The notes beneath the pieces were generated by a model. That model saw only the letters and a list, made by a program, of their open reading frames with translations. It made no database searches and was not told where the DNA came from. The translations under genes were made by a program, and so were the position numbers. Positions 34,145-38,684 of a DNA stretch of 64,000 bases are shown piece by piece; the first letter of the stretch is position 1; each line of letters opens with the position of its first letter. Source of the stretch: Naumannella halotolerans (lineage in GTDB: Bacteria > Actinomycetota > Actinomycetes > Propionibacteriales > Propionibacteriaceae); NCBI RefSeq assembly GCF_004364645.1, contig NZ_SOAW01000001.1, forward strand, positions 496,001 through 560,000. The letters are read 5' to 3'.

Positions 34145-34846
34145 GTGGAGTTGCTGGCTGAGATCTGGTCCCGGGTGACGGCACGACAGGTCGTACCCCC
34201 GAGCAGCCAGGTGCTGTTGTCCGCGGCGGCTGCCCTGGCAGCGGTGATCCTGGCCTGGCGCTTGGTGCGGATCCTCACCACCGTCGTCCACGAGGCCGGT
34301 CACGCCGTGGTGGCGATGCTGGTGGGTCGGAGGCTGCAAGGGATCCGGCTGCACTCCGACACCTCGGGGCTGACGGTGTCCAAGGGTCGGCCGCGGGGGC
34401 CGGGGATGATCGCCACCCTGCTCGCCGGTTATCCCGCGCCGGCGATCTTCGGCCTGGTGGCTGCCTGGGTGCTGAGCCAGGGGTACGCCGTCGCGCTGCT
34501 GTGGGGCAGCCTGCTGGTGCTGGCGCTGATGGTGCTGTGGATCCGCAATTTCTACGGCTTGCTGGTGATCGCCGTGCTCGGTGTCGGCATCGGCCTGGCA
34601 TCGTGGTATCTGCAGCCTGCCGAGCAGTCATTGATCGCCTTCACGCTCACCTGGTTGTTGCTCCTCTCCGCACCGCGGGCGTCGATGGAACTGCTGCGCC
34701 GGCCGTCGGCGAACTCCGACGCCGGGCAGCTGGCCCGGTTGACCCGTGTCCCGGCAGGGGTGTGGAGCACCGTGTTCGTCGGCATCGGTCTGTTCGCGCT
34801 GGTCGTCGGGACGGCGATGCTGCTGCCGCAGGTAATCATGCGCTGA
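34145..34846 (+). CDS. M50B-like membrane metalloprotease-family protein
   Basis: 233 aa with about six membrane helices. The zinc motif HEAGH (~47-51) is in the second helix. The later G-x-P and Asp motifs of M50 are weak: AGYPAPAIFGL follows and no NxxPxxxxDG motif is seen, which fits the peptidase M50B-like group (DUF of actinobacterial membrane proteins), whose activity is unproven. GTG at 34145 has a CACAAT box 7 nt upstream; starting at the ATG codons just before would overlap this box. Confidence 0.75.
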   Translation: MELLAEIWSRVTARQVVPPSSQVLLSAAAALAAVILAWRLVRILTTVVHEAGHAVVAMLVGRRLQGIRLHSDTSGLTVSKGRPRGPGMIATLLAGYPAPAIFGLVAAWVLSQGYAVALLWGSLLVLALMVLWIRNFYGLLVIAVLGVGIGLASWYLQPAEQSLIAFTLTWLLLLSAPRASMELLRRPSANSDAGQLARLTRVPAGVWSTVFVGIGLFALVVGTAMLLPQVIMR

Positions 34847-34886
34847 CGTCCGCTTGCGTACCTGTCCGGGTGCGCCGACCGGAGGG

Positions 34887-37230
<2,344 letters not shown>

Positions 37231-37236
<6 letters not shown>

Positions 37237-37273
37237 GTTTGCACTATAGGCATCAAAGTGCAGACACCTGCAC
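37231..37273 (-). promoter_or_regulatory. tetR promoter with two palindromic operators
   Basis: The -10 box TATAGT (37243-37248, minus strand) is 6 nt before the tetR ATG. Two related palindromes flank it: GTGCA-n4-TGCAC (37231-37244) and GTGCAG-ACAC-CTGCAC (37258-37273). Both have the same half-site, so TetR binding would block its own promoter. Confidence 0.6.
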
Positions 37274-37422
37274 GGCGTACAAGGACTCACAGGATTGTCC
37301 CAGCTTCGCTGTCGGTCCTGGGTCGGCACTGGGCGGCGGAGGTCGTGACTTCGCCAGCGATTTCGGTCAGTGCTGGGCGGTGGTGCCGATGGTCGTGGCT
37401 TCGAGGGGTGGTGACCTCGGGG

Positions 37423-37548
37423 TATGGGTTCGGGCGTGCGGCCCCGGGGGTATGGGTTCGGGCGTGCGGCCCCGGGGGTATGGGTTCGGGCGTGCGGCCC
37501 CGGGGGTGTGGGTTCGGGCGTGCGGCCCCGGGGGTGTGGGTTCGGGGG
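37423..37548. repeat. 28-bp tandem repeat, four full copies plus half a copy
   Basis: Units start at 37423, 37451, 37479 and 37507, with a truncated fifth from 37535. The unit begins TATGGGTTCGGGCGTGCGGC and ends in a G run; units 4 and 5 have TGTGGG for TATGGG. The unit length is not a multiple of 3, and there are no spacers, so it is neither coding nor CRISPR. Confidence 0.92.
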
Positions 37549-37648
37549 CTTCAGGGCCCGGCCGTTCGCCCGACCGTTGCGACGGGTGTGGCTTCGGGGC
37601 GTGTGGCTGCGAGGGCTGCGGCTCGGAGGTGACTCCGAGGGGGGTGAT

Positions 37649-37796
37649 GTCACCGGAGGCTGTGAGGGGCGCCCGTGCCGGTTTCGCTGAGGTGGATCTG
37701 GATGACAACCAAACAAGCGTCACGGTCGACGCGGTCATCCGTCAGTCGACTAGGGGTTATGCGCCGGTCGGGTCGATCGAGTGTGACGTTTGTTTG
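37649..37796. repeat. Duplicated ~148-bp element, copy A
   Basis: Copy A of a pair. By eye it differs from copy B at about 17 positions, most of them in the centre. It carries an inverted repeat CAAACAAGCGTCAC (37710-37723) / GTGACGTTTGTTTG (37783-37796), 14 bp with one mismatch, enclosing 59 bp. No transposase, no target duplication and no known element is recognised. Confidence 0.9.
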
Positions 37797-37843
37797 ATTT
37801 TGACTCGGCAGACTCGGGGCGGTCGGCCTGCCCGGCGCCGTGC

Positions 37844-37992
37844 GTCGCCGGAGGCTGGTGAGGGGCGCCCGTGCCGGTTTCGCTGAGGTGGATCTGGACG
37901 ACAACCAAACAAACGTCACAGTCGATGCGGTCTTCGGCCGGCCCACTAGGGGTTCTGTGCCGGTTGCGGCGATCGAGTGTGACGTTTGTTTG
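37844..37992. repeat. Duplicated ~148-bp element, copy B
   Basis: Copy B, 47 bp after copy A and in the same orientation. Here the 14-bp inverted repeat is perfect: CAAACAAACGTCAC (37906-37919) with GTGACGTTTGTTTG (37979-37992), again enclosing 59 bp. The one mismatch of copy A is in its left arm, so the arms are better conserved than the loop. Confidence 0.9.
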
Positions 37993-38049
37993 GGTTGTTG
38001 CCGTCATGATCACCGCGGTGGCCGGTTCTCGTGGTGAACCCGGTCGGCT

Positions 38050-38163
38050 CAGTCGCACCCGGTCGATTCAGTCGCACCCGGTCGATCCAGTCACACCCGG
38101 TCGATCCAGTCGCACCCGGTCGATTCAGTCGCACCCGGTCGATCCAGTCGCACCCATCCGGCT
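38050..38163. repeat. 19-bp tandem repeat, six copies
   Basis: Six adjacent 19-bp units (38050, 38069, 38088, 38107, 38126, 38145) with consensus CAGTCGCACCCGGTCGATY. The last unit is diverged and ends at the stop codon of the CGNR gene. No spacers and no coding signal. Confidence 0.92.
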
Positions 38164-38684
38164 CAATTGCGAGGGCGCTGTGACCGGTGTCGCCGAACCG
38201 CCTCCCGGGTGCCGCACCGTGGCGAGCAGTAGCGCTGGGTCCCGTTGCGGGACAGGTCGGCGAACGGCAGATCGCAATCGCTCGCACCACAGCGGCCGAG
38301 CCGGTCCATTCCCCGCTCGGTCAGGTGCAGGGCGGTGCCGACGGTGATCATCGTCGACAGCAGATGGGCCAGACCCACCCGGTCGGGCCGGTAGTGAAGG
38401 TGCCAGCGGCCGGTGTGGTCGGTGAGCCGGGGGTGTTCGGCATACCGGGCGAGCAGGTCGTTCAACCGGGCAGCGCGTTGCACCTCCTCGCCGACATCGA
38501 CGACGGACTGCCAGGAATCCAGGAAGTCGGCCAGGCGGTCGATGTCGGTCACCGTCGCGGGCAGTTCGACCTCCACCCCGTGGTCGAGGCAGACCTCGGT
38601 CAGTTCGGCGGGTGAGGTCGGCAGTTCGCGGACCAGCGCGACGGCCAGTCGCACCGGTTCCGCACCGTAAGGGTTGATCAGCAC
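38163..38684 (-). CDS. CGNR zinc-finger regulator (ABATE domain)
   Basis: 173 aa. The N-terminal part (~30-125) is an ABATE-type stress-response domain with alternating Leu and acidic residues, and the C-terminus is a zinc finger: CGASDCDLPF, then YCSPRCGTREAVRRHR, where CGNR is here CGTR. Such proteins are predicted regulators that bind DNA through this finger. The GTG start at 38684 is only 14 bp from the divergent TSUP gene, so it may control that gene (inference). The stop codon abuts the 19-bp repeat array. Confidence 0.85.
   Translation of the reverse strand: MLINPYGAEPVRLAVALVRELPTSPAELTEVCLDHGVEVELPATVTDIDRLADFLDSWQSVVDVGEEVQRAARLNDLLARYAEHPRLTDHTGRWHLHYRPDRVGLAHLLSTMITVGTALHLTERGMDRLGRCGASDCDLPFADLSRNGTQRYCSPRCGTREAVRRHRSQRPRN

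Follow-up and report, generated by a model that had tools for sequence, protein, structure and literature searches.

Short inverted doublets beside DUF559 genes in Naumannella halotolerans look like a counterpart of REPIN repeats and their transposases

INTRODUCTION

By architecture, the described system closest to the elements reported here is REPIN/RAYT, in which inverted doublets with conserved arms and a variable spacer are held at a fixed distance in intergenic DNA. A genome can carry several such populations, each beside its own single-copy enzyme gene, and tandem clusters arise in which a 5' flank is duplicated together with the doublet (PMC3116915). The RAYT enzyme is a Y1 transposase of the IS200/IS605 type (PF01797). 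The GTAG- and CGTC-tagged REPs are palindromic repeats as well, dispersed in intergenic DNA and forming dimers arranged head to head, and the CGTC REPs, built of 8-9 bp stems with a terminal CGTC tag, were reported without a dedicated transposase (PMC3733652). A separate line of work concerns DUF559 proteins, which are grouped with the Vsr-like PD-(D/E)XK endonucleases; one of these, VsrA of Caulobacter, has been linked to a cytosine methyltransferase and mismatch repair (PMC12907096).

Here, we describe a duplicated inverted repeat in a 64,000-nucleotide stretch of the Naumannella halotolerans genome (hereafter the window) and the wider system to which it belongs. An earlier note, made from the letters of the window, had offered three guesses for the repeat: a small-RNA gene pair, a binding-site array or a non-autonomous mobile element.

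RESULTS

The doublet pair in the window

At positions 37649-37992 there are two direct copies, as the earlier note had claimed; offset by 196 bp, they align over 135 nt at 89% identity, with 14 nt more to the left. The 14-bp arms that it placed around exactly 59 bp are likewise there (37710-37723/37783-37796 and 37906-37919/37979-37992), and they form part of longer arms of ~25 bp with few mismatches. The duplicated unit consists of a ~60-bp 5' flank and the doublet itself, and ~47 bp of unrepeated DNA lies between the units:

37649..37706, + strand: duplicated 5' flank, copy 1
37707..37799, no strand assigned: family A doublet copy 1, 69-bp class; left arm 37707-37731, right arm 37775-37799
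37844..37902, + strand: duplicated 5' flank, copy 2
37903..37995, no strand assigned: family A doublet copy 2, 69-bp class; left arm 37903-37927, right arm 37971-37995

The left arm of copy 1 (37707-37731) is decayed and reads ACAAGCGTCACGGTCGA. This layout of flank plus doublet matches that of the tandem REPIN clusters (PMC3116915, Figure S7).

Tandem arrays are found on both sides of the pair, at 37405-37546 (28-bp unit, ~5 copies) and at 38038-38151 (19-bp unit, ~6 copies). The doublets share a 3.35-kb stretch (34834-38185) with an MFS transporter and a TetR regulator. In the same-genus genome G001 the genes bordering this stretch lie just 52 bp apart, and it was therefore either gained here or lost in G001. 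The MFS transporter (34887-36592, minus strand) looks broken, since it is read in three separate frames (36368-36592, 36059-36319 and 34887-36062), and the MFS_1 domain scored only in the last of these (34887-36062).

Family A across the genome

The consensus over all copies gives an arm of ~25 bp, AAC[AAG/CAA]ACAAACGTCACACTCGATC, which defines family A. In the 3.47-Mb genome (six contigs) the 15-mer TGTGACGTTTGTTTG, with at most two mismatches allowed, has 63 sites versus 0 for a reversed control pattern; its abundance is far beyond chance, and the sites nearly always stand in inverted pairs at fixed spacing. A covariance model (R1) built from 33 family A doublets recovers ~37 family A sites at E<1e-7, two of which are the pair in the window. 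The homology check that had been suggested thus returned many copies in this genome and, as described below, no family A in relatives.

The distances between the arm cores of the 33 copies are 53-55 bp (16 copies), 59 bp (1), 65-66 bp (15) and 78 bp (1). All 33 copies examined are intergenic, in long gaps and with every gene orientation represented. The contrast between conserved arms and unconserved interior, noticed earlier in the window pair, is true of all family A copies: the spacer is poorly conserved, except for a central ACACGCC in most copies of the short class. Within an arm we found an internal stem of 3 bp only, and no GTAG. The suggested search for target-site duplications at other copies found none above the level of shuffled pairs. 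The suggested covariance analysis gave a mixed answer, as the two arms of a copy are slightly more complementary to each other (92.8%) than arms shuffled between copies (90.9%), while most single arm changes have no compensation on the opposite arm. Since most changes are uncompensated, recognition of each arm by a protein accounts for the data better than selection of a stem alone.

Individual copies show further rearrangement. One doublet is split, with its halves at C4:106913 and C2:113 (contig:position), the ends of two contigs, which looks like an IS insertion. Two others (L120 4695-4790 and L121 4446-4553) have one hybrid arm each, GACACGCCGAACGTCACACTCGATC; its outer part is identical to the GACACGCC motif at the centre of other copies.

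Further families in the same genome

The wider system, with its other families and the DUF559 partner genes, lies outside the window and had escaped the earlier note. Inverted pairs were catalogued over 1.64 Mb of the genome, independently of family A, and this census shows that the genome contains at least six doublet families, each with arms of its own:

Family A: 19 copies in 1.64 Mb; two spacing classes, where each other family has one
Family A2: GAGCAGAATCCGCCACTCGATC; 7 copies in 1.64 Mb; spacing 53 (7/7)
Family B: CCGTTCCGCAGGAAACGCAC; 21 copies in 1.64 Mb; spacing 37 (21/21)
Family C: GGTCGTTATTCGGCCACTGC; 8 copies in 1.64 Mb; spacing 34 (8/8)
Family D: ACACCGCTGGAGTGGCTCCAG; 10 copies in 1.64 Mb; spacing 58-59 (10/10)
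Family F: TTGTCAGCGATTATGGCC; 3 copies in 1.64 Mb; spacing 37 (3/3)

All 68 doublets in the 1.64 Mb lie outside genes, which were called from codon usage by a simple program trained on the window. Family B, present on C1, C2, C3 and C4 (e.g. C1:48604-48660, L282), is the largest family scanned, and among the genes of the 1.64 Mb it has no DUF559 partner. Two B doublets, at C1:633649 and 634680, stand 1 kb apart with no convincing gene in between.

DUF559 genes beside doublets

Which genes adjoin the doublets? The DUF559 domain was first met in a Pfam search of the genes neighbouring elements in a relative, G130; it was singled out after this one neighbour had been seen, and other genomes, as well as a test blind to family, then gave the same association. 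DUF559 genes were located in 25 genomes, and at least one is present in 24 of them. In N. halotolerans five DUF559 genes adjoin doublets, each those of a different family:

C2:450159, DUF559 gene: family A doublets on both sides
C3:294650, DUF559 gene: family D on both sides (52 and 70 bp)
C3:279246, DUF559 gene: family F on both sides (70 and 3 bp)
C3:304776, DUF559 gene: family A2 beside the gene
C1:53403, DUF559 gene: two family C copies on one side

The start of the gene at C2:450159 was taken upstream of the caller's start, the frame being open beyond 451,300. A doublet within 500 bp is thus seen for 5/8 DUF559 genes versus 97/1310 other genes (p=1.2e-4); the other three DUF559 genes have no doublet nearby. 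Doublets of the same family on both sides, within 800 bp, occur at three of ~1,318 genes, and all three are DUF559 genes, for which the chance is ~1.5e-7, or ~6e-7 when a DedA gene found outside the scanned stretches is counted. At this locus (L048, C1:1200131-1201652) family A doublets stand on both sides of the DedA (VTT domain) gene, at C1:1200404-1201054, and one of them lies within a 440-bp tandem duplication. A DedA gene also precedes the element that adjoins DUF559 in G130.

The partner proteins are 190-310 aa long with the DUF559 domain (PF04480) at the C-terminus. The D of DIxF, the E and D of VEIDG and the D-x-x-R that follows are invariant or nearly so. The profile matches a solved endonuclease-like protein (3hrl, E=2.8e-12), and weak AbiEi matches extend over the N-terminal part. 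By profile and by acidic residues, the partner genes belong with the DUF559/Vsr-like nucleases, and a nuclease role is predicted for them. The RAYT-type Y1 transposase (PF01797) is absent from this genome and from seven relatives, in searches with positive controls.

Distribution and architecture in relatives

The exact family A pattern is found in none of 56 relatives, the same-genus genome included, and in no genome contigs of 84,980 species, and in plasmids and phages it does not exceed chance. Family A is lineage-specific and absent from the same-genus genome, which is ~77% identical in the window region and too divergent for a comparison of empty sites. A single viral match was an isolated lone arm, which we take as chance.

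The architecture reaches further than family A. Together with a broader model (R2), R1 finds such doublets in other genera of the same bacterial family; these keep the core CACTCG...CGAGTG with outer arms that differ in each genome, and many of them have a central CACGCTCAGC-like motif. Between genera the arm sequences differ wholesale yet stay complementary, under a search model that favours paired arms. Across 20 populations the core distances cluster at 43-45, 53-56, 65-66 and 75-78 bp. Their best period is 11.0 bp (R=0.89), a value that 0/5,000 uniform draws reach; as uniform draws do not allow for the lengths that the search models favour, we regard the period as suggestive only.

Is the association with DUF559 also seen in these genomes? 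G017 has a DUF559 gene, apparently in decay, with doublets of that genome on either side, and in G130 one has an element on one side. We then asked, without reference to any family, whether an inverted pair beside a gene recurs on the gene's other side. This was so for 5/44 DUF559 genes of relatives versus 0/994 other genes; the only control match listed was the G017 DUF559 gene itself. The five positives come from G020, G133, G130 (twice) and G017, and their arms, known from the gene flanks alone, are different each time. Inverted repeats nearby are likewise more frequent for DUF559 genes (14/38 versus 12/154, p=2.7e-5). The element-flanked DUF559 proteins were not found to form a separate clade. 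One relative, G159 (loci L146, L154, L165 and others), has five doublets and no DUF559 gene, and its partner may therefore have been lost or be another protein.

DISCUSSION

Based on this association, we think that the pair in the window is probably part of a REPIN-like population of short, non-autonomous doublets that is mobilised by a cognate DUF559 protein. Among the three guesses of the earlier note, the non-autonomous mobile element comes nearest, because the copies are scattered between genes, restricted to one lineage and linked to a nuclease gene of their own, even though they lack target-site duplications. We infer that mobilisation would proceed by recognition of the arms of the protein's own family, either as an inverted pair on DNA or, alternatively, as a hairpin when the DNA is single-stranded. 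Once the DUF559 protein has cut, the doublet could be copied or inserted at another place; the enzyme gene would remain single copy, as RAYTs do. For family A, the gene at C2:450159 is the candidate enzyme. Against this reading stand the three DUF559 genes with no doublet nearby, family B with its 21 copies and no DUF559 partner, the doublets of G159, the DedA gene between family A copies, and the scatter of the element-flanked DUF559 proteins over more than one clade.

A broader reading may well hold, and we put it at an even balance: that DUF559 genes encode the dedicated enzymes of a large class of actinobacterial repeat populations that has so far gone unrecognised, in which each single-copy PD-(D/E)XK-type nuclease recognises and spreads its own doublet. 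This would be a second REPIN-like system of independent origin, in which a restriction-enzyme fold takes the place of an HUH or DDE transposase. DUF559 proteins are frequent in the genomes searched and have no agreed role; if they are paired with repeats, many of them would gain a function that can be tested. If true, it would also be a second case of bacterial repeats kept by a single-copy dedicated enzyme, here of unrelated fold, and would bear on the origin and persistence of REPIN-like populations, a question that is still open. The different arms beside each gene make specificity directly testable. The open-access papers searched yielded no report of DUF559 paired with repeats; subscription journals and preprints lay outside this search, and because of that limit an earlier description elsewhere is possible.

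An alternative that we consider unlikely, and that keeps the earlier idea of a binding-site array as a rival, treats the doublet as a paired operator. A DUF559/AbiEi-like or other DNA-binding protein would bind both arms on one face of the helix; at the doublets that flank its own gene it would act as a repressor, and the copies scattered elsewhere would be other chromosomal sites of a regulon, or decoys. The clustering of core distances at an 11.0-bp period would suit binding in phase, although part of this signal comes from the lengths that the search models favour; the weak AbiEi matches, and arms that follow the consensus singly and not by compensation within the element, point the same way. 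However, the sites occur in all gene orientations, often behind genes, and the neighbouring genes have no common function. Local duplicates, together with total absence from the same-genus species, look like mobile DNA rather than a regulon.

If the doublets are mobile, could they be ordinary MITEs, that is, miniature derivatives of a DDE transposon that share its terminal inverted repeats and are moved by a conventional transposase? Short length, dispersal, inverted ends and a non-coding interior would all agree with this. Yet no family A arm (15-mer, at most two mismatches) flanks a longer element, nearly all such arms standing in short doublets; target-site duplications are absent, and the interiors are not conserved, unlike those of young MITEs. 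We therefore hold this origin to be improbable.

Quite improbable, too, is an RNA hairpin, whether a terminator, an attenuator or a small RNA, whose long stem is under selection. Strong stems are indeed predicted on both strands, and arms remain complementary across genera despite differing sequence, in an alignment that is biased by matches chosen partly for pairing. Against this, covariance models of known RNA families (Rfam) have no match at the doublets, a T-run after the stem of family A is absent, the elements show no preferred orientation to genes, and few arm changes are compensated within the genome. The small-RNA gene pair of the earlier note accordingly finds little support.

That DUF559 genes and doublets merely gather in the same long, rearranging intergenic regions, with no functional link, is very improbable, for the position of the elements in long gaps and the patchy distribution of DUF559 genes would fit, but a different family for each DUF559 gene, the same arms on both sides and recurrence in several genera would go unexplained.

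With DUF559-mediated mobilisation as the preferred reading, how do the doublets compare with known systems? With MITEs they have in common that they are short, non-coding and dispersed with inverted ends; they differ in that target-site duplications are missing, the interior is not conserved, and, for family A, no autonomous element shares the ends. The CGTC REPs resemble them as dispersed intergenic repeats in head-to-head arrangement, but the arm here has no 8-9 bp stem with a terminal tag, and the arms of families B, C, D and F are quite different (PMC3733652). With the Vsr/DUF559 nucleases, such as VsrA of Caulobacter, the partner genes share the domain and its conserved acidic residues (PMC12907096). 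The doublets were not classed as REPIN/RAYT, because a Y1 enzyme and a tagged REP arm were both sought and not found: the arms carry neither a GTAG (or CGTC) foot nor a short stem of their own, and the partner, in place of a Y1/HUH transposase, is a DUF559 protein of PD-(D/E)XK nuclease type. REPIN/RAYT is nevertheless the closest system by architecture, from the inverted doublets and tandem clusters to the several populations in one genome, most of which here lie beside a single-copy gene of their own, a DUF559 gene (PMC3116915). Doublets paired with DUF559 genes seem to be the counterpart, not described so far, of REPINs and their transposases.
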